This document shows positions 14,366 to 28,965 of a stretch of DNA of 64,000 nt, piece after piece (position 1 is the first letter of the stretch; each line of letters starts with the position of its first letter). Source of the stretch: Corallococcus macrosporus DSM 14697 (GTDB lineage: Bacteria > Myxococcota > Myxococcia > Myxococcales > Myxococcaceae). The DNA lies in assembly GCF_002305895.1 (NCBI RefSeq), contig NZ_CP022203.1, positions 5,186,501 to 5,250,500 on the forward strand, given 5' to 3'. The notes below the pieces were generated by a model. It saw nothing but the letters and a program-made list of their open reading frames with translations, ran no database searches and was not told where the DNA came from. A program made the position numbers and the translations under genes.

Positions 14366-16489
14366 ATGCAAGACTTCCCCTCCCGTCGACAGTTGTTGAT
14401 GGCCGTCCTGGTGGCCACCACGCTCTCCGCGGCCGTCGAGGGGGTCTGGAGCTACTCCGGGCCGGTGAGCACCCCGGCGCGCATCCTCCTCACCGCCGCC
14501 GTGGGGCTGCTCATCAGCGGCACCCTGGCGATGCTGCTCCTGCGCAGCCGCGAGCGCGCCCACCGCGCGCGGGACGCCGCCTTGCGCAGCGCGAATGACG
14601 CCAGCGCCCTGCGCGAAGCCGTCATGGACGTCACGCCCGTGGGCTTCGCCTTCTTCGACCGCGAGCTGCGCTACGTCCACGTCAACACGGCCCTCGCCGC
14701 GATGCATGGCCTGCCCGCGGAGCGCCACCTGGGCCGGCACGTCACCGAGGTGATGCCCGACCTGGGACAGCTCATCGCCCCGCGCCTCCAGCTCGCGCTC
14801 AGCACGGGCGCGTCCATCCAGGACACCCTGCTCCAGGTGGAGACGCCCGCGGCCCCCGGTGAGAGCCGCTACTGGTTCGGCAGCTACCTGCGCGTGTGCG
14901 GCGCGAATGGCGAGGTGCTGGGCGTCATCGCCGCGCTGTCCGAGCTCACCGAGCGCATGCGCGCCGAGAAGAGCCTCCAGGAGCACGAGGGCCGGCTGGA
15001 CGTGCTCACGCGCTCGCTGCCGGACTACCTGTGGGGCGGCAAGCTGCGCGGCGGCAGGCTGCGCGACTTCTACTGCACCCCCGTCATCGAGCGCACCACC
15101 GGCTATGCCGCCGCCGCGTTCGTCCAGCTCGCGCCGGATGGCGGCCCGCCGCCGCTCTGGGCGGAGATGATCCACCCGGAGGACCGCGCCCGCTACCGCG
15201 CCAGCATCGAGGGCCTGGCGCCGGGCGCGGAGGCGGAGCTGGAGCACCGGCTCATCTGCGCCGACGGCCGCGTGCGCTGGGTGCGCAGCCGCGCCGCCGC
15301 CTCCGCGCTGGACGCGCAGGGCGAGCTGCACGTGGGCTGCGTCGTCACGGACATCACGGACCGGCGCCTCGCGGACGACCTGCGGCAGCGCCTCCATGAC
15401 AGCTTCCGCCGCTCCGCGCAGGAGTGGCGCCGCACCTTCGACGCCGTGTCCTCGCCGCTGATGGTGCTGGGCGCGGACGGCACCGTGCAGCGGCTCAACG
15501 CCGCGGCCATCGCGCTCTTCGGAGGCATGGACCCCTCCGGCCAGCCGCTGTTCACCGCGGCCAGCGCCCCGCCCTGGTCCCACGCGCTGCCGCTGGTGGA
15601 GGAGCTGCGCCGCACCCGCGCCAGCGCCACCCGGGAGCTGGGCGACCCGGTGTCGCGCCGCACGTGGGAGGTCTCCGCGACGTGGGTGGACGAAGCGGGC
15701 GGCGAGGACTCCCGCATCATCCTGGTCGCCACCGAGGTGACGCGCCTGCTGGAGCTCCAGGCCAGCCTGCGGCGCAGTGAGACCATGGCCGCCATGGGCG
15801 CCATCGTCGCGGGCGTGGCCCACGAGGTCCGCAACCCGCTCTTCTCCATCTCCGCCGTGGTGGACGCGGTGGAGGCCACCTTCGGCGCGCGCGCGGAGCT
15901 CAAACCCTACGTGGACGTCCTGCGCGGCGAGGTGAAGCGGCTCAACCACCTCACCCAGGAGCTCTTCGAGTACGGCCGCCCCACCCGGGGTGAGTGGGTG
16001 GAAGGCCCCGTCCTCCCCGTGGTCGCGGACGCGCTCTCCGCGTGCGCGCTGGCCAGCGAGCGCGCGGGCGTGACGGTGGAGCGGGCCCATGCGGACGCCC
16101 TGCCCCGCGTCCGCATGGACGCCCGGCGCTTGTTTCATGTCTTCCGCAACGTGGTGGAGAACGCGGTGCAGCATTCGCCCGCCGGCAGCGCGGTGCGCGT
16201 GGCCACGGAGCACGCCGAGGAGGCCGGCCGGGCGTGGGTGCGGTGCACCGTGCGTGACGGCGGGCCGGGCTTCCGCGAGGAGGACCTGCCCCATGTCTTC
16301 GAGCCCTTCTTCAGCAAGCGGCGCGGCGGCACGGGGCTGGGGCTGTCCATCGTCCAGCGCATCCTGGAGGAGCACCAGGGCGTCATCCGCCTGCGCAATC
16401 ACCCGGAGGGCGGGGCGGAAGTCACGCTGCTGCTGCCGGCTGTTTCTTCGCCTGTATCAACGCAACACGTAGACTCCCTGGCTTCATGA
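14366..16489 (+). CDS. Membrane-anchored PAS histidine kinase (NtrB type)
   Basis: The protein has 707 residues. Two membrane helices (about 12-28 and 35-55) are separated by a very short loop. Three PAS-like domains follow (about 78-200, 210-335 and 350-465). The catalytic core has phospho-acceptor His486 in VAHEVRNPLFSIS, then NVVENAVQHS, DGGPGF and GGTGLGLSIV. The short loop makes a periplasmic sensor unlikely, so sensing is probably by the PAS domains. The stop overlaps the ATG of the sigma-54 response regulator (ATGA), giving a coupled kinase/regulator pair. Confidence 0.92.
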   Translation: MQDFPSRRQLLMAVLVATTLSAAVEGVWSYSGPVSTPARILLTAAVGLLISGTLAMLLLRSRERAHRARDAALRSANDASALREAVMDVTPVGFAFFDRELRYVHVNTALAAMHGLPAERHLGRHVTEVMPDLGQLIAPRLQLALSTGASIQDTLLQVETPAAPGESRYWFGSYLRVCGANGEVLGVIAALSELTERMRAEKSLQEHEGRLDVLTRSLPDYLWGGKLRGGRLRDFYCTPVIERTTGYAAAAFVQLAPDGGPPPLWAEMIHPEDRARYRASIEGLAPGAEAELEHRLICADGRVRWVRSRAAASALDAQGELHVGCVVTDITDRRLADDLRQRLHDSFRRSAQEWRRTFDAVSSPLMVLGADGTVQRLNAAAIALFGGMDPSGQPLFTAASAPPWSHALPLVEELRRTRASATRELGDPVSRRTWEVSATWVDEAGGEDSRIILVATEVTRLLELQASLRRSETMAAMGAIVAGVAHEVRNPLFSISAVVDAVEATFGARAELKPYVDVLRGEVKRLNHLTQELFEYGRPTRGEWVEGPVLPVVADALSACALASERAGVTVERAHADALPRVRMDARRLFHVFRNVVENAVQHSPAGSAVRVATEHAEEAGRAWVRCTVRDGGPGFREEDLPHVFEPFFSKRRGGTGLGLSIVQRILEEHQGVIRLRNHPEGGAEVTLLLPAVSSPVSTQHVDSLAS

Positions 16490-17853
16490 CGCGTACCCGA
16501 ATCCTCCTCGTGGACGACGAGCCCGGCATCCGCCTGGGCATGCGGGGCTTCCTCACCGCCCACGGGTTCGACGTGGACGAGGCCTCCAGCCTCGCCGAGG
16601 CGCAGGAGGCGTTCCGCGCCACGCGTCCGGACGTGGCGGTGGTGGACTACCGGCTCACGGACGGCACCGCGCTGGAGCTGCTGCCCCGGCTCAAGGACAT
16701 TGACGCCTCCGTGCCGCTGGTGGTGCTCACCGGCCATGGCTCCATCGAGCTGGCCGTCCAGGCGGTGAAGGAAGGCGCCGAGCAGTTCCTCACCAAGCCC
16801 GTGGAGCTGGCCGTCCTCAAGGTGGTGCTGGACCGGCTGGTGGCGCAGCGGCGGGAGCGGCAGCGGCTGCTGGCGGAGCGCTCGCGCGTCACCCGTGGGA
16901 GGGTGGACCCCTTCGTGGGCACCAGCGCCGCCCTCCGCGCGCTCCAGGCGCAGGCCGAGCGCATCATCGAAAGCGACAGCCCGGTGCTCATCACCGGGGA
17001 GACGGGCAGCGGCAAGAGCGTGCTCGCGCGCTGGCTGCACGAAGGGGGACCGCGCAAGGACGCGCCCTTCGTGGACCTCAACTGCGCGGCGCTCTCCAAG
17101 GACCTGCTCGACTCGGAGCTGTTCGGCCATGAGAAGGGCGCCTTCACCGGCGCGGTGGCCGCCAAGCAGGGCCTGCTGGAGGTGGCCGACCGGGGCACCC
17201 TCTTCCTGGACGAGATTGGCGACATGGACTCGGCCGTCCAGCCCAAGCTGCTGAAGGTGCTGGAGGAGAAGCGCTTCCGGCGGCTGGGCGACGTCAGGGA
17301 CCGCCGCGTGGACGTGCGCCTCATCGCGGCCACGCACCAGGACCTGGGCGCGGGCGCCCGGGAGAAGCGCTTCCGCAGCGACCTCTACTTCCGCGTCAGC
17401 ACGCTCATCCTCCACGTGCCCCCGCTGCGCGAGCGGCCGGAGGACATCGTCGGGCTGGCGCACCACGTCCTGGCGGAGCTGGGCGCGGCGCGAGGCCGCG
17501 GCGGCGTGGGCCTGCAACCCGACGCGGAGGTCGCCCTCACCCGCTACGCCTGGCCCGGCAACATCCGCGAGCTGCGCAACGTGCTGGAGCGCGCCGTCCT
17601 CCTGTCCGGAGGCGGGCCGCTGTCCCGGGGAGACCTGCGCTTCGAGGCCAGCGCCGGTGAGTCCGGCTCGGACGCCGACGACAACCTCACCCTCGAGGAG
17701 CTGGAGCGCCGCCACATCGAGCGCATCCTCCGCCGCGAGAATGGCCACGTGGAGCGCGCCGCCGCGCGACTCGGCATCCCCCGCTCCTCCCTCTATGAGC
17801 GGCTGAAGCGCCTGGGCATCAACCGGTCCGGATTCCAGAAACCGGATCCGTAG
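16486..17853 (+). CDS. Sigma-54 dependent response regulator (NtrC family)
   Basis: This 455-residue protein has three parts. A receiver (1-120) carries DD10-11, Asp54 and Lys104. An AAA+ domain (about 142-370) has Walker A GETGSGKS (171-178), the sigma-54 contact loop GAFTGA (218-223) and Walker [10 protein letters not shown] Fis-type helix-turn-helix (about 405-445) contains AAARLGIPRSSLYERLKRL. It is coupled to the overlapping kinase. Its last codons (SGFQKPDP) coincide with a 23-bp palindromic repeat that recurs 651 bp downstream. Both copies sit 83-84 bases before a -24/-12 promoter, so this protein probably binds that repeat. Confidence 0.95.
   Translation: MTRTRILLVDDEPGIRLGMRGFLTAHGFDVDEASSLAEAQEAFRATRPDVAVVDYRLTDGTALELLPRLKDIDASVPLVVLTGHGSIELAVQAVKEGAEQFLTKPVELAVLKVVLDRLVAQRRERQRLLAERSRVTRGRVDPFVGTSAALRALQAQAERIIESDSPVLITGETGSGKSVLARWLHEGGPRKDAPFVDLNCAALSKDLLDSELFGHEKGAFTGAVAAKQGLLEVADRGTLFLDEIGDMDSAVQPKLLKVLEEKRFRRLGDVRDRRVDVRLIAATHQDLGAGAREKRFRSDLYFRVSTLILHVPPLRERPEDIVGLAHHVLAELGAARGRGGVGLQPDAEVALTRYAWPGNIRELRNVLERAVLLSGGGPLSRGDLRFEASAGESGSDADDNLTLEELERRHIERILRRENGHVERAAARLGIPRSSLYERLKRLGINRSGFQKPDP
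17827..17849 (+). promoter_or_regulatory. Putative enhancer site, copy 1 (palindromic repeat)
   Basis: The sequence TCCGGATTCCAGAAACCGGA (17827-17846) is a 20-bp near-palindrome with 8 of 10 positions symmetric per half. The same 23 bp recur without mismatch at 18478-18500. This copy overlaps the end of the NtrC-type gene and lies 84 nt before the -24/-12 element at 17934. Such spacing is typical of enhancer sites for sigma-54 activators. Confidence 0.65.
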
Positions 17854-17933
17854 CCTGGACGCAGCGCGCGAAACGCCAGCGCCGCTCAAGAGCAAGCGTC
17901 GGAATTTACTTGGAACCGGGACTAGCCCGTCCA

Positions 17934-17949
17934 TGGCCCTGAGCTTGCT
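17934..17949 (+). promoter_or_regulatory. Putative sigma-54 promoter of the receiver gene
   Basis: TGGCCC-N5-TTGCT at 17934-17949 has the correct GG-to-GC spacing of a -24/-12 promoter, with one deviation from TGGCAC. A start near 17960 would leave almost no leader before GTG 17964, which is a weakness of the call. Confidence 0.5.
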
Positions 17950-17963
17950 TGGGGGCCGGTTCC

Positions 17964-18344
17964 GTGGCCCAGAACATCCTGATCGTCGATGACGAGTCTT
18001 CCCTCTGCTGGGTGTTGGGTCAGTTCTTCGCCGGGGCCGGCTACCGCGTGGATTCCGCGAGCGCGCTGGACGAAGCGCTGGACCTGATGACCACGGGCCG
18101 CTACGACCTGGTCATCAGCGACCTGCGGCTGAGCGGGACGCTGTCCGAGGAAGGGCTGATGCTGGCGGACTTCGTGCGCCGCTTCGCGCCCATGACGCGC
18201 ATCGTCCTGCTGACCGCGTTCGCGTCGCAGGAAATCACCGACCGCGCCCAGGCCCTGGGCGTGGACCTGGTGCTGCCCAAGCCGCAGCCGCTGCCCGCGC
18301 TGGCCGAACACGTCTCGCGCCTGCTGGCCGCCGCCGCGGGGTAG
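17964..18344 (+). CDS. Single-domain response regulator
   Basis: This 126-residue CheY-like receiver has the acidic pair DD9-10 in ILIVDDESS, phospho-acceptor Asp53 in ISDLRLSG, Thr in VLLTAF and Lys in VLPKPQP. No output domain follows. GTG 17964 is chosen because it places ILIVDDE at the usual distance from the N-terminus. An in-frame TTG at 17949 lies inside the putative -12 box. It follows the kinase/NtrC pair and probably receives phosphate from the same or another kinase, acting as a relay or modulator. The putative sigma-54 promoter upstream suggests control by the adjacent NtrC-like protein. Confidence 0.88.
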   Translation: MAQNILIVDDESSLCWVLGQFFAGAGYRVDSASALDEALDLMTTGRYDLVISDLRLSGTLSEEGLMLADFVRRFAPMTRIVLLTAFASQEITDRAQALGVDLVLPKPQPLPALAEHVSRLLAAAAG

Positions 18345-18477
18345 TCCCCGTCCCTGCCGTTGCGTGCGGGTGCGCTCCGGCTCCGCGCGACGACGCGTCG
18401 CGGCGATGGCCAGACTCAAATCAGCAATCCCAGACTTCCACTCGGCTCGCCTGCCCTCCGTCAGTGAGCCGTATGTA

Positions 18478-18500
18478 TCCGGATTCCAGAAACCGGATCC
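18478..18500 (+). promoter_or_regulatory. Putative enhancer site, copy 2 (palindromic repeat)
   Basis: The 23 bp are identical to 17827-17849, while the bases on either side differ. That points to selection on the site itself rather than a duplicated segment. It ends 83 nt before the TGGCAC of the promoter at 18584, one base different from the spacing of copy 1. Confidence 0.68.
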
Positions 18501-18583
18501 AGCGTTCGGACAACCACCACGCTGTTGCGTTCCAGGCTGGCTTCAAACGCAGACAATCCGAATGTAGACAGCCTGTTTCACGT

Positions 18584-18599
18584 TGGCACCTGGGTTGCT
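18584..18599 (+). promoter_or_regulatory. Sigma-54 (-24/-12) promoter of the giant surface protein gene
   Basis: TGGCAC-CTGGG-TTGCT is an exact match to the sigma-54 consensus with correct spacing. Transcription should begin near 18610. The nearest activator gene is the NtrC-like regulator about 0.7 kb upstream. Confidence 0.75.
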
Positions 18600-18774
18600 C
18601 TTGCACCCCGGAGTGATTGAGCGAGCGCCCACTCCCCACGCGCCTTCCTCCCGGCGACAGACGATTCCCTCGGATTCCCACCCCCTCGGCGAATCCTGGG
18701 CTTCTGCCACGCACCGCCAGGCCGGTGTGGACCTCCCTGGCTCGCCCTCCCTCCGCGTCCCCCCTGGTCAATCC

Positions 18775-21700
18775 ATGTCATCTCATTCCTCACGCCGCGC
18801 CAGCGGTGAGACAGCGCGTCTGCCCTGGGCGCTGGCCCTCCTGATAACCGTGACGGCGACGCAGGCGGCGGCGGCCCCCGTCCTGCGCCACACCGCGAAC
18901 CAGCGCGGCGACCTCCTGATGATTGGCAACACGCTGGCCCAGGACTGCGCCAACAACATCCCCGGGCCCCTGGTGGGCACCGTGGGGAACTGCGGGTCGA
19001 ACACGTCGGACGACTCCGTGGACGTGTACTGGACCATCGCGTCGGACGTGGCCTACGCGAACACGTCCGTGACGGCGACCCAGGCCCGCAGCCGGGCCTC
19101 GCTGCAGGTGCCGGCGGGCGCCCTCGTGACGTACGCGCGCCTGTACTGGGCGGCGCACCTGTCCACGTCGACGAACAACCGGACGCCGGACACCACCGCG
19201 GAGTTCAGCCGGCCGGGCGTCTTCTCCCAGATGCTGACGGCCGACGTCACGCACCACTACGCCCCCAACGGCCGGTTCACCTATGAGGCGTCCGCGGACG
19301 TCACCGCGCTGGTCGCCGCGCACGGCACGGGCGTCTTCGAGGTGAGTGACGTGGACGCCGCGCCCATCACCCACCTCAACAGCACGGACCCGTTCAGCGC
19401 CTGGGCGCTGGTCGTCTTCTACCGGCACCCGGATTCGCCCATCCGCAACCTGACGCTGTTCGACGGCCTGGACTACGTCGGCAGTGGCAGTTCCCAGACG
19501 GTGACGCTGTCCGGCTTCAACGTCCCGACGTCGGGCTTCGACGCCAAGCTGGGCGTGCTGGCCTTCGAAGGCGAAGCCTCGCGCTCCGGAGACCAGTTCC
19601 GCGTCAACGGCGTGGCCGTCTCCGACGGTACCAACCCCTCGAACAACTTCTTCAACGGCACGCGCTCGGTGCTTGGCAGCCCGTCCACGCACGCGGATGA
19701 CCGGCCCCGCTTGACGGGTGCGCAGGCGAGCATGTCCGGCATGGACCTGGACGTGGTGGACATCACCAACCGCGTCTCCGGCGGCGCCACGTCCATGACG
19801 CTGACCGCGACGTCCTCCGGCGACGCCTACCTCCTGGGCGCCTTCGCGACGTCCATCGCCACGCTGCGCCCGGACTTCACCAACACGTACAAGACGGCGA
19901 CGCCCGTGAATCCCCGCGCGGACGGCTCGCTGCGCGGCGGCGACCTCATCGACTACACCATCATCACCACCAACACCGGGGATGACGTCAGCATCGAGAC
20001 CGTCCTCTCCGACCCGCTCCCGGCCCAGCTCAGCTACGTGCCGGGTACGCTGGAGATTGTCTCTGGCCCCAACGTGGGGCCGTTGACGGACATCGCGGGT
20101 GACGACGTGGGCGAGGTCAGCCCCACGGGCGTCATCACCGTCCGCCTGGGCACCGACGCGACGGCCACGCTGGGCGGCAGCCTCCAGCTTCAGGAGAGCA
20201 CCAGCATCCGCTTCCGCGCCGTGGTGGCCCCGGAGGCCTCCGGCGTCGTCGCCAACCAGGCCACCATCACCGCGGAGGGTGAGCGCGGCGCGCCCGCCAG
20301 CTCCGCGACCAGCTCCCCCTCCCCCAGCACCACCGGTCCGACGACCATCGTCGTGTCCGTGCCCGACGCGCCCGAGGTGACGGCGCCCGCGCCCGGCAGC
20401 ACCGTGGCGACGGACGCGCCCGTCTTCACCGGCACCGCCGAGCCCGGCAGCACCGTGAGCGTGGTCATCAACGGCGTCGAGGTCTGCTCCGCCACGGCCC
20501 ATCCGACCACCGGCGCCTGGTCCTGCACCAGCGCGACGCTGCCCGAGGGCCCCCACACGGCCGCCGTGACGGCCACCGACCCGGCCGGCAACGTCGGCCC
20601 GGCCACGCAGGTGACCTTCACGGTCGATACGCTCGCGCCAGAGACGAGCATCGTCACCGGCCCCACCGGAGCGGTGGCCGACACCAGCGCGTCGTTCACC
20701 TTCGCCTCCAACGAGAGCCCCGTCACCTATGAGTGCAGCCTGGACGGCGCCGCCTTCACCGCGTGCGCCTCCCCGTCCGCGTACATCAACCTGTCCCAGG
20801 GCAACCACACCCTGCAGGTGCGCGCCCGGGACACGGGCGGCAACGTGGACCCGACGCCCGCCACCCGCACTTGGACCGTGGACACGGTGGCGCCGGACAC
20901 CTCCATCCTCAGCGGCCCGTCCGGCCTGACGAACGCCGCCAGCGCCACGTTCGACTTCGGCTCCACTGAAAGCGGCGTGATGTACGAGTGCGCCCTGGAC
21001 GGCGCGCCCTTCACCGCCTGCTCGGATCCGCGGACCTTCACCGGCCTGGCGCAGGGCAGCCACACCCTGCAGGTGCGCGCGGTGGATGCCGCGGGCAACG
21101 TGGACCCGAGCCCCGCCAGCCGGACCTGGACGGTGGACACCACGGCGCCCGACACCAGCATCGTCAGCGGCCCTTCGGGGACGACGGACTCCGCGGACGC
21201 GGCGTTCGCCTTCAACGCCAGCGAGAGCCCCGCCACCTACGAGTGCAGCCTGGACGGCGCGGCCTTCGCCACCTGCACCTCGCCGGCTTCCTTCAGCAAC
21301 CTGCCTGACGGCGGCCACACCTTCGCCGTGCGCGCGGTGGACGCCGCGGGCAACGTGGATGGCACGCCCGCCACGCGCTCGTGGATGGTGGACACCACGG
21401 CGCCCGACACCAGCATCCTCAGCGGCCCCTCGGGGATGACGAACTCCGCCGACGCGGCGTTCAGCTTCAACGCCAATGAGAGCCCCGTCACCTACGAGTG
21501 CTCGCTGGACGGAGGGGACTTCACCGCTTGCACCTCGCCCGCGGCCTTCACCGGCCTGTCCGAGGGCAGCCACACCTTCGCGGTGCGCGCGGTGGACGCC
21601 GCCGGCAACGTGGACCCGACGCCGGCCACCCGCGCGTGGACCGTGGACACGGTGGCGCCGGAGACGTCCTTCGCCAGCACGCCGCCCCTGCTGTCCAACG

Positions 21701-24700
21701 CGGCGGACGCCACCTTCGACTTCAGCGCCAACGAGAGCGACGTGACGTATGAGTGCCGGCTGGACGGCGCGGCGCTGTTCACGGCCTGCACCGACCCGGT
21801 GACCTTCCCGGCGCTGGCGCAGGGTGACCACTCGCTCCAGGTCCGCGCCGTGGATGCCGCTGGCAACGCGGACCCCACGCCTGCCGTCTACGCGTGGACC
21901 ATCGACACGGCCGCGCCGGACACCACGCTGTCCGGAGGGCCCACCGGGACGACGGCGGACGCCAGCGCCACGTTCAGCTTCACCGCTGACGAGACGCCCG
22001 CCACCTTCGAATGTTCGCTCGACGGCGCGCCCTTCGCCCCCTGCGCCAGCCCGGCGCCGGTGACAGGGCTCGCCGACGGTGAGCACACCTTCGCGGTGCG
22101 CGCGGTGGATGCCGCGGGCAACGTGGACCCGACCCCCGCCAGCCGGACCTGGACCGTGGACACCACCGCGCCGGACACCTCGTTCGCCAGCACCCCGGCG
22201 CTCGTGTCCGGCTCGGCGACGGCCGCCTTCGACTTCAGCGCCAATGAGAGCCCGGTGACGTACGAGTGCTCGCTCGACAGCGCGCCCTTTGCGGCGTGCG
22301 ACGACTTGGCGACGTTCACCGGCCTCCAGGACGGCGAGCACACCCTGGCCGTGCGCGCCCGCGACGCCGTGGGCAACGTGGACGCGACGCCCGCGACCTA
22401 CACGTGGACCGTCGACACCCTCGCGCCGGAGACGACCATCGTCAGCGGCCCGTCCGGCTTGACGAACAGCGACAGCGCCAGCTTCACCTTCAGCGCCTCG
22501 GAGGCCGGGGTGACGTATGAGTGCGCACTGAACGGCGCGACGTACGCGCCTTGCGCCAGCCCGGCGGCGTTCGACGACCTGCCGGATGGCAGCCACACCC
22601 TGACGGTGCGCGCGGTGGATGCCGCCGGCAACGTGGACCCGACGCCGGCCACGCGGACCTGGACGGTGGACACCACGCCGCCCGGCACCTCCATCACCAG
22701 CGCCCCGGCCGCCATCACCAACGCCACCAGCGCCACGTTCGGCTTCGCCAGCGATTCGGCCCCCGTCACCTACGAGTGCGCGCTGGATGGCGCGGCCTTC
22801 AGCGACTGCTCGAACCCGCGGACCTTCTCGGGCCTGTCGGAGGGCGACCACACGCTGGCCGTGCGCGCGGTGGACGCCGCGGGCAATGCGGACCCGACGC
22901 CCGCGACCCACGCGTGGACGGTGGACACCACCGCGCCGGACGCGCCTGGAATCGACGCGCCCGCCAACGGTGTGTCGGTGCCCACGCAGCAGCCCGCCAT
23001 CTCCGGCACGGCGCAGCCGGGGAGCCTCGTGACGGTGACGGTGGACGGCGACGTGCTGGGCTCGGCCCCCGTCGATGCGAACGGCGACTGGACCTTCACC
23101 CCGTCCGTGCCGTTGGGCCAGGGCGAGCACACCGTCACGGCGACGGCCACGGACACCGCGGGGAACGTGAGCGACCCGAGCGCCCCCACCACCTTCACCG
23201 TGGACACGGTGGTTCCGGACGCGCCGGAGATCACCACACCCGGAGACGGCTCCACCATCGCCACCGCGACGCCCGTCTTCGAGGGCATCACCGAGCCCTA
23301 CGCGCAGGTGACGGTGACGGTGGACGGGGAGGTCATCGGGACGGTGACGGCGGATGGCGACGGCAACTGGAGCCTGCCCAGCCCGGACGCGCTCGGCGAG
23401 GGCCCGCACACGGTGGAGGCCACCGCGACGGACGCGGCGGGCAACACCAGCGAGGAGACGTCGAGCGGCTTCTCCATCGACCTGTCCACGCCGGAGACCT
23501 TCATCGACTCCGGCCCCGCCACCTTCACCCGCGAGACGACGGCCAGCTTCGTGCTCCGGACGGAGAACGGCGGCGTCGGCTTCGAGTGCAGCCTGGACGG
23601 CGCGGCCTTCGCGGCCTGCGCCAGCCCGGCGGGCTTCAGCGGCCTGGCGGAGGGCAGCCACACCCTGGCCGTCCGCGCGGTGAATGCCCTGGGCACCGTG
23701 GACCCGACGCCCGCGACCTACGCGTGGACGGTGGACCTGACGGCGCCCGCGACGCCGGCCATCCTCTCGCCGCCGAGCGGCGCCGAGGTGGGCACCGCGA
23801 CGCCGACCCTCACCGGCACCGGTGACGCGGGCACCCACGTCTACCTGGAGGTGGGCGGCACCACCTACGGCCCCATCGTGGTGGACGAGGACGGCGACTG
23901 GACCTTCACCCTGCCGGACGCGCAGGCCGAGGGCCCCCTCACCGTCACCGCCACCAGCGTGGACGCAGCGGGCAACAGCTCCCAGCCCGTGACGCACGCC
24001 TTCATCATCGACCTGACGGGACCGGAGACGTTCATCGACGCCGGTCCGAACGCCATCACGCGCCAGCCGTCCGCCACCTTCGAGCTGCGCGCCGAAGGCG
24101 GCGCCGTGGGCTACGAGTGCAGCCTGGACGGCGCGTCCTTCGCGCCCTGCGCTTCGCCGGTGACGTACTCCGGCCTGGCGGATGGCGAGCACCTCTTCCT
24201 GGTGCGCGCCGTGGACGCCGCGGGCAACGTGGACCCCACGCCCGCCGAGCACGCGTGGACCGTGGACACGGTGGAGCCGGACACGCTGGTCGTGTCCGGG
24301 CCTGCCTCCCCGACGAACGCGACGTCCGCGACCTTCGAGTTCGCGGCCAACGAGCCCGGCGCCACCTTCGAGTGCAGCGTGGACGGCGCGACGTACATGG
24401 CCTGCCCCCACCCGGTCACCTTCGAGGGCTTCGTGGAGGGTGAGCACAGCCTCCTGGTGCGCGCGGTGGACGCCGCGGGCAACGTGGACAGCTCGCCCGC
24501 GACCTACACCTGGACGGTGGACCTGACGCCTCCGTCCGCGCCGGTCATCGCGTCGCCAGCCTCGGGCGCGGTGCTGGACAGCGGCGTGGTGACGCTCACC
24601 GGCTCCGCGCCGGGCGCGGCCACCGTCAACGTCACGGTGGATGGGACGACCTACGGCCCCGTCCCGGTGGACGGCTCCGGCAACTGGACCTTCTCCCCGC

Positions 24701-27030
24701 CGGTGACGCTGGGTGATGACACGTACACCGCCGTCGTGACGGCGACGGACACGGCGGGCAACGTCAGCGGCCCGGCGAGCGTCACCTTCACGGTGGACAC
24801 CACGGCGCCGGAGACGGCCATCGACAGCGGCCCGCAGGCCCTGACGAACGTGGCCACCGCGTCCTTCGTCTTCTCTTCCAACGAGTCCCCGGTGACGTAC
24901 GAGTGCAGCCTGGACGGCGCCGCCTTCACGGCGTGCCCGGCGCAGGCGCAGTTCGGCCCGCTGGCGGACGGCAGCCACACGCTGGCGGTGCGCGCGGTGG
25001 ACGCCGCGGGCAACGTGGACGCGACGCCGGCCACGCACGACTGGGAGGTGGACACGGCGGCGCCCGCGGTGGCCATCAGCTTCCCCGCCAACGGCGAGGT
25101 GCTCGACACCGCGGCGGTGACGTACGCCGGAACCGCGGAGCCGAACAGCACGGTGGTGGTCGTCGTCAACGGCGACACCGTGGGCACCGTCGAAACGGAC
25201 GGCTCGGGCCAGTGGACGCTCCCCGTCAACACGCCGCTCGCGGAGGGGACGCACACCGTCTCCGTCACCGCGACGGACGCGGCGGGGAACACCAGCGACC
25301 CGGTGAGCCACACCTTCACCGTGGACGCGGAGCCGCCCGAGACGTCCTTCACCCAGACGCCTCCGATGCTGAGCGCGTCCGCCACGGCCACCTTCGCGTT
25401 CGCCTCGGATGAGTCGCCGGTGACGTACGAGTGCAGCCTGGACGGTGCGCCCTTCTCCGATTGCGAGAACCCGGCCGAGCTGTCCGGCCTGTCCGACGGC
25501 GAGCATGTGCTGCAGGTGCGCGCGGTGGATGCGGACGGCAACGTGGACCCGACGCCCGCCAGCCACACCTGGACGGTGGACACCACGGCGCCGGACACCT
25601 TCATCGCCAGCGGCCCCCCGCTGACGGAGGCCCCTGCCGCGGCCACCTTCGACTTCGACGCCTCCGAGCCGGACGTCACCTACGCGTGCAGCCTGGACGG
25701 CGCGGCCTACGTGGCGTGCACGGACCCGGTCACCTTCAGCGACCTGGCGCTGGGCACGCACACGCTCCACGTGCGCGCCAGCGACGCGGCGGGCAACGTG
25801 GATGACACGCCGGCCACCTACACCTGGGTGGTCACCGCCGACGCGGACAACGACGGCCTCACGGACGCAGAAGAGATTGCGCTGGGCACGGACCCGAACG
25901 ACCCCGACACGGACGGCGACGGCCTGCCGGACGGCATCGAGGTGCACGTCGCGGGGACGGATCCGCTCGACGACGACTCGGACGACGACGGCCTCCTGGA
26001 CGGCAACGAGGACGCCAACCACGACGGCGTCGTCGACGCGGGTGAGACGGACCCGAACAACCGGGACACCGACGGCGACCTGCTGTCGGACGGCCTGGAG
26101 CGCGGCCTCACCGAGCCCCAGGGCACCGGCACGGACCTGACGCTCTTCGTGGCGGACGCGGACCCGACGACGGTGACGGACCCGCTCAACCCGGACACGG
26201 ACGGCGGCAGCGTGCGTGACGGCATTGAGGACGCCAACCACAACGGCCGGGTGGACCCGGACGAGACGGATCCGCTGCTGGCCGCGGACGACGTCGACTC
26301 CGACCTGGACGGCATCGACGACGCGACGGAGCTCGAGCTGGGCCTCGACCCGCGCAACGCGGACAGTGACTCCGACGGTGTGCCGGACGGCATCGACGGC
26401 ATCGACGACACGGATGATGACGGCCTCATCGACGCGCTGGACCCGGACAGCGACAACGACGGCATCCTGGACGGCACGGAGCTGGGCGTGACGCTGGAGA
26501 GCGCTCCGGCGGACACGGACCGCACCTCGCCCCACTTCCGCCCGGACGCGGACCCGAGCACCACCACCGACCCGAAGCGCCCGGACTCGGACGATGACGG
26601 CCTGTCGGACGGTGAGGAGGACACCAACCACGACGGCCGCGTCGACGACACGGAGACCGACCCCAACAACCCGGACACGGATGACGACGGCCTGACGGAT
26701 GGGGTGGAGGTGAAGGGCGCCAACCCCACCCTCCCGCTCAATCCGGACACGGACGGCGACGGACTGAACGACGGCGTGGAGGACGCCAACCACGACGGCG
26801 CGCTCGGCTCCGGCGAGACGGACCCGAACGACGCCGACACGGACGACGGCGGCGCCAGCGATGGCGAGGAAGTCACCGGCGGCACCGACCCGCTGGACAG
26901 CAACGACGACTTCACCGTCTCCGGCCACGGCTGCAGCACGAGCGGCGCGGGCACCCTCGCTCCGCTGGCGCTGTGGCTCCTCGCCCTGCCCATGCTGCGC
27001 CGCCTGCGCCGCTCCGCCCCGGCCGCCTGA
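18775..27030 (+). CDS. Giant Ig-repeat surface protein with TSP3 region and MYXO-CTERM tail
   Basis: From ATG 18775 the protein has 2,751 residues. It starts with a signal peptide (about 1-34) and an N-terminal adhesin-like domain (35-360). A DUF11-like domain follows (about 370-500, [14 protein letters not shown]). Next come 15 copies of a repeat of about 85 residues ([15 protein letters not shown] ... [15 protein letters not shown]) mixed with six Ig-like modules ([13 protein letters not shown] type), up to about 2350. An Asp-rich calcium-binding TSP3-like region follows (about 2355-2710). The end is GCSTSGAG, a hydrophobic helix and RRLRR, a MYXO-CTERM signal. It is predicted to be anchored on the cell surface and act in adhesion or cell contact. 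Some myxobacterial relatives carry motility-type (AgmC-like) names, but I cannot confirm that here. Confidence 0.92.
20360..25836 (+). repeat. Tandem Ig-like coding repeats in the giant gene
   Basis: About 5.5 kb is made of two coding repeat types: 15 units with a paired-Cys motif YECSLDGA...C and six Ig-like units with the start PDAP.I..P..G. Neighbouring units share long near-identical DNA, so recombination could change the copy number. The region is also a likely place for assembly error. Confidence 0.85.
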
Positions 27031-27054: not shown

Positions 27055-27105
27055 CACCGGCGGATGTCCCTGCTCATCGCTTCTTGAGTCGGTCATCCGC
27101 CGGTG
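27055..27105 (+). repeat. 12-bp perfect inverted repeat between the giant gene and the OmpA gene
   Basis: CACCGGCGGATG (27055-27066) is exactly complementary to 27094-27105 across a 27-base loop. It lies in the 73-123 base gap between the two genes and has no T-tract. It could be a terminator or attenuating hairpin, or a stabilising mRNA end. It covers the GTG at 27103, which argues for ATG 27154 as the start of the next gene. Confidence 0.55.
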
Positions 27106-27153
27106 ACAACCTTCGCGGCTCCTCGACGGGGCCCCTCCCAGCCTCGACCTGCC

Positions 27154-28961
<1,808 letters not shown>

Positions 28962-28965
<4 letters not shown>

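Follow-up and report, generated by a model that had tools for sequence, protein, structure and literature searches.

The window analyzed here, a stretch of 64,000 nucleotides from Corallococcus macrosporus DSM 14697, carries a kinase-activator gene pair followed by genes for a stand-alone receiver, a giant surface adhesin, and an OmpA protein. The features that concern us are the following.

14366-16489, + strand: membrane histidine kinase with several PAS domains, HisKA, and HATPase_c (Pfam); overlaps the activator start (ATGA)
16486-17853, + strand: NtrC-type sigma-54 activator with REC, Sigma54_activat with GAFTGA, and HTH_8 (Pfam; orthologs); recognition-helix region LGIPRSSLY
17827-17861, + strand: predicted enhancer copy 1, a 35-nt array of 7-bp repeats with its fifth repeat at 17855-17861; overlaps the activator 3' coding end (codon bias)
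17934-17949, + strand: -24/-12 promoter of the receiver gene, TGGCCC-N5-TTGCT (motif; conserved in 28 relatives)
17964-18344, + strand: stand-alone phosphorylatable receiver with a GTG start (Pfam; alignment with conserved DD/D/T/K); predicted transcription start at about 17960
18478-18512, + strand: predicted enhancer copy 2, with its fifth repeat at 18506-18512; intergenic
18584-18599, + strand: -24/-12 promoter of the giant adhesin, TGGCAC-N5-TTGCT (motif; relatives)
18613-27030, + strand: giant Ig-repeat surface adhesin with DUF3344, Big_13, TSP3, and a MYXO-CTERM-like tail (Pfam/NCBIfam; frame conserved from GTG)
27103-28965, + strand: TSP3 and OmpA protein, a distant TraB relative (Pfam/NCBIfam)

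The original prediction held that one 23-bp palindrome precedes two sigma-54 promoters at almost equal distance. Both copies of TCCGGATTCCAGAAACCGGATCC lie exactly where it placed them, at 17827-17849 and 18478-18500, with dissimilar flanking bases, and the gaps to the following TGGC are indeed 84 nt (17850-17933) and 83 nt (18501-18583). The elements that follow, TGGCCCTGAGCTTGCT (17934-17949) and TGGCACCTGGGTTGCT (18584-18599), are the sole TGGCNC-N5-TTGCT sites without a mismatch in the window. The proposed 20-bp dyad core reads TCCGGATTC-CA-GAAACCGGA, with 9-bp arms matching at all but one position, and copy 1 falls inside the coding end of the NtrC-like activator gene 16486-17853, as described. 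Pattern and model searches, which provide all whole-genome statistics given here, revealed no further 23-mer within three mismatches, either in the window (0.00 expected from shuffles) or in the whole 8,973,512-bp genome. Many coding copies unrelated to sigma-54 promoters would have spoken against a regulatory role; the genome has three sites, a diverged third one included, and each has a -24/-12 element 86-87 nt past the 20-mer.

Alignment with relatives revised the extent of the element. The dyad was correctly recognized, but it constitutes only the first three heptads of a functional unit of five 7-bp steps (35 nt) with the consensus TCCGGAT-TCCAGAA-(A/T)CCGGAT-CCNNNNN-(C/T)(T/C)GGAC. The fifth step, which the prediction had missed, is a conserved half-element 28 nt downstream of the first base of each 23-mer: CTGGAC at 17855-17860 in copy 1 and TCGGAC at 18506-18511 in copy 2. 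The array is conserved in the genus of the window and in two further genera, and all five steps are complete in some copies from g3, such as TCTGGATTCTGGAATCCGGAATCCGGATGTTGGAC (g1-g26 are genus labels within our family comparison). The dyad is centered near -123 relative to the predicted transcription start.

Copy 1 covers the last eight codons of the activator, and codon usage changes sharply there. In the 28 orthologs compared, GC3 falls from 0.948 over the gene body to 0.576 over the codons that overlap copy 1; the share of GGA among Gly codons rises from 6 to 100%, that of GAT among Asp codons from 5 to 100%, and that of AAA among Lys codons from 6 to 86%. Because GC3 drops and non-preferred codons are used exactly at this position, copy 1 is under selection as a DNA site, with its codons chosen accordingly.

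Loci from 96 family genomes were collected by the site, by the activator protein, or by a sequence model of the site; the promoter was never a criterion. A TGGC-N7-YTGCW promoter lies downstream in 99 of the 105 distinct sites above the score threshold, at 85-89 nt past the 20-mer in 95 sites and at 76-78 nt, about one helical turn shorter, in 4, compared with a background frequency of about 1e-5 to 2e-5 per strand-base; orthologous sites are not independent, and these counts represent perhaps seven to nine independent promoter classes. The rule spans at least seven classes that differ in their downstream genes (the receiver, the window-type adhesin, the ftsA-linked adhesin, the g6 adhesin classes, the g6 receiver, and the AdG-type adhesin), and both spacing and orientation are fixed at unlinked loci too. 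Six sites depart from the rule: two are real sites read on the reverse strand, and four, all from g6 genomes, precede a Ser/Thr kinase gene. The latter carry TCTGGATTCTGGAATCYRGATCC (L248 2841, +; L250 8316, -; L251 8126, -; L252 7987, -) about 77-80 nt before the kinase gene, with no -24/-12 element at the usual distance. Spacings of 75-79 and 85-89 nt are used and none of 80-84 nt was seen, which is suggestive of a helical phase kept between enhancer and promoter, and only that.

Sites and activator occur together across the family. When three mismatches are allowed, sites are found in 39 of the 96 genomes, all in g1, g5, and g6, and the reversed-pattern control found none in the same 96; the model search located sites in all 45 genomes of these three genera. 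These are the genera that carry a close activator ortholog (80% identity or more). At an E value below 1e-150, the ortholog was detected in 43 of the 45 and in six g3 genomes (about 60% identity). Copy 1 was the sole site found by the three-mismatch search in five small g1 genomes; in L117, the one of them read closely, the adhesin and copy 2 are missing and the TraB-like gene directly follows the receiver. Weak model matches outside the activator-carrying genera (G010, G045, and G048) were treated as noise, and the G010 match was rejected as a repeat tract without a promoter. The activator gene had no match in phage records, and a search of genome contigs for related loci returned only distant relatives of about 35-42% identity. 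Our literature search, thin on subscription journals, found no paper on this motif or regulon.

The first promoter in the window serves the receiver gene. The acidic pocket, the phospho-acceptor Asp, and the Thr and Lys residues are kept in all g1/g5 receiver orthologs and in the g6 ortholog. Its GTG lies 14 nt past TTGCT, about 4 nt downstream of the predicted transcript start, which is placed 12 nt past the -12 C. A later translation start is unlikely because this GTG is just two residues ahead of the first β-strand. The adhesin shows the same arrangement, with a probable start at GTG 18613, 13 nt past TTGCT and in frame in nine sequences, rather than at the conventional ATG 18775; in L081, the region of the internal ATG is deleted in frame. 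The frame upstream of the usual ATG (18613-18774) is open and conserved, so that the protein may carry 54 more residues ahead of its signal peptide. Start codons 12-14 nt after the -12 element are found in the window (17949-17966 and 18599-18615), in all 28 g1/g5 orthologs, and in the g6 receivers, and they imply leaders of 2-4 nt. The sigma-54 transcripts of the receiver and the window-type adhesin are therefore probably near-leaderless, a conclusion that hinges on the predicted start site. Four g6 genomes (L092, L095, L097, and L101) carry, upstream of the main receiver, a second stand-alone receiver, diverged to about 32% identity, that has an array-like site and a TGGCACA-N4-GCTGCA promoter of its own.

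The second promoter precedes the giant adhesin, whose operon probably extends to the OmpA protein at 27103-28965. The adhesin tail resembles MYXO-CTERM by eye, and TIGR03901 is not among the matches listed. For 27103-28965, the best NCBIfam match is TraB (NF033763) at 318 bits, below the curated cut-off of 700 bits; we therefore regard the protein as a TraB relative and not as TraB itself. The pair resembles the TraA/TraB outer-membrane-exchange pair (PMC3325183) in that a surface adhesin with a C-terminal sorting tag probably shares an operon with an OmpA partner encoded behind it. Unlike TraA, the window adhesin has Ig repeats and no PA14 domain among its Pfam matches, and thus does not show the combination of a PA14-like domain with a MYXO-CTERM adhesin expected of a TraAB pair.

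The third site, diverged in sequence and 1.58 Mb distant, was detected by the site model at C1:6783683-6783715 (19.6 bits, E = 0.0077). TGGCTCCCGGATTGCT lies 86 nt further on, ahead of the gene of a giant Ig/TSP3/OmpA protein located between ftsA and ftsZ (ftsZ was recognized by motif). This protein shares with MXAN_5598, called a curious neighbor of ftsA and ftsZ (PMC11980579), the ftsA/ftsZ context, adhesin repeats, an internal MYXO-CTERM-like motif (by motif), and a C-terminal OmpA domain. In the genome of the window, the third target is tied to the sigma-54 activator across a distance of 1.58 Mb. The window adhesin and 27103-28965 look like a split form of the fused third target, because a similar motif closes the adhesin and the next gene encodes TSP3 and OmpA as a separate protein, with TraB, below cut-off, as its best NCBIfam match. 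The original prediction had outlined a complete local circuit. The comparative evidence strongly supports its core, in which a single activator works through a single type of enhancer on sigma-54 promoters of both the receiver and the giant adhesin; given the distance of the third target, the predicted circuit is not solely local.

The activator itself has the makeup of a group I NtrC-type sigma-54 enhancer-binding protein, with PF00072, PF00158, PF02954, and a readable GAFTGA in 16486-17853. In agreement with an NtrC-type regulon, the sites are followed by -24/-12 promoters (GG-N10-GC), and the array, with its dyad centered near -123, falls within the range of roughly 80-200 bp upstream of the start that is typical of dyad-symmetric or tandem enhancer sites. 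The genome encodes many such activators (246 raw candidates at first look), and the binding of the local one is a prediction; the arrays could thus be the sigma-54 enhancer of another, unlinked activator, with their place at the end of the local activator gene being incidental. We consider this improbable. The activator orthologs of g1, g3, g5, g7, and g8 all have the array at the 3' end of their gene, the sites are confined to genera with an activator ortholog, and the recognition helix and the motif core are conserved together: the stretch LGIPRSSLY is identical in the window and in the g3/g7/g8 orthologs and reads LGISRSSLY in g6.

Slightly less probable still is a reading in which the sites bind some other factor, a repressor or an architectural protein, that modulates sigma-54 promoters whose true enhancer lies elsewhere. 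Conservation across the 85-89 nt between array and promoter is limited, and the similar g6 sites before the Ser/Thr kinase gene without a promoter at that distance would also suit this explanation. Against it, no alternative element is conserved in every promoter class, the size, dyad symmetry, and distance of the sites suit an activator site, and the array is linked to the activator gene. Finally, that the 23-mers are a dispersed repeat, a terminator stem, or a coding coincidence without a regulatory role, as the partly coding position of copy 1 and the hairpin potential of the dyad might suggest, was rejected as scarcely credible, given only two copies within three mismatches genome-wide, orientation and -24/-12 spacing fixed at unlinked loci, non-preferred codons kept in 28 orthologs, and the absence of a T-run after the dyads.

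A related heptad array also marks the 3' end of the activator ortholog in sister genera, namely in g3, in g7, and in three g8 genomes, and a TGGCGYGNGGATTGCT-type promoter lies about 75-79 nt beyond it, roughly one helical turn less. The genes behind it encode CheA, an MCP, CheW, CheR, and sometimes CheB (Pfam; locus maps). Such array-preceded che operons were recorded at L104, L106, L254, L263-L267, and L269. The chemosensory system thus shares with the window the orthologous activator, the array, and the -24/-12 promoter and differs in target and spacing. With the array and the IPRSSLY stretch kept and che genes in the place of adhesins, activator and enhancer are conserved and the target is a different one. 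In the genome of the window, the best CheA match reaches 47% identity, and no site turned up in its neighborhood; with neither a close copy of the che operon nor a nearby site, the che link was dropped for this organism. A broader reading is that one kinase-activator pair reads a heptad array at the end of its own gene, that its regulon was exchanged between lineages (a che operon in g3/g7/g8, giant TraAB-like adhesins and stand-alone receivers in the genus of the window and its relatives), that the receivers and the window-type adhesin have near-leaderless transcripts, and that helical phase is kept at 75-79 or 85-89 nt. We hold this composite, taken as a whole, to be an evenly balanced proposition.

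Two regulators of Myxococcus xanthus offer the closest comparison. NmpR recognizes GCGCA-N5-TGCGC, in sites commonly 14-15 bp apart (PMC11841059), and Nla28 recognizes tandem 8-bp half-sites at promoters that are often intragenic (PMC9765219). Both share with the window system a REC-AAA-HTH_8 activator, tandem half-sites, and -24/-12 promoters. The NmpR site spacing of 14-15 bp is comparable to alternate heptads of the window array, and intragenic sigma-54 promoters are likewise known for Nla28 targets (PMC9765219). The window system differs from both in its motif, 7-bp TCYRGAW repeats in a 35-nt array, in its near-constant spacing of 85-89 nt, and in having three targets only, with a stand-alone receiver among them. 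Judged from its sequence, it is a sigma-54/NtrC-type regulon whose motif, near-fixed spacing, and targets are new relative to NmpR and Nla28.

Our preferred reading, to which we assign a probability of roughly 85%, is that the arrays are bound by the 16486-17853 activator, phosphorylated by the 14366-16489 kinase, and form an RpoN-dependent switch of the receiver, the giant adhesin and its partner, and the fused adhesin at ftsA/ftsZ. The membrane PAS kinase would phosphorylate the NtrC-type activator, which would oligomerize on the array, some 123 nt ahead of the predicted start; through a short DNA loop of about 8 helical turns, RpoN polymerase would then be opened at the -24/-12 elements of the three promoters. 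The first target would be the stand-alone receiver, which probably serves the same kinase as a feedback or phosphate-sink partner; the second, the giant Ig adhesin of MYXO-CTERM type together with the TraB-like OmpA protein that accompanies it; and the third, the unlinked fused adhesin-OmpA protein between ftsA and ftsZ. A counterpoint to this assignment is the 7-bp repeat period, which is unlike the usual NtrC-type dyad with a spacer of about 5 bp.

These results link some of the largest myxobacterial surface proteins, including the puzzling MXAN_5598-type adhesin within the cell-division cluster, to a probable signal pathway and a probable direct regulator. The switching of cell attachment by a dedicated two-component system thereby becomes testable. 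Across the family, the locus may offer a clean natural case of regulon replacement, in which activator and enhancer are kept while the controlled genes serve chemosensing in some lineages and adhesion in others.
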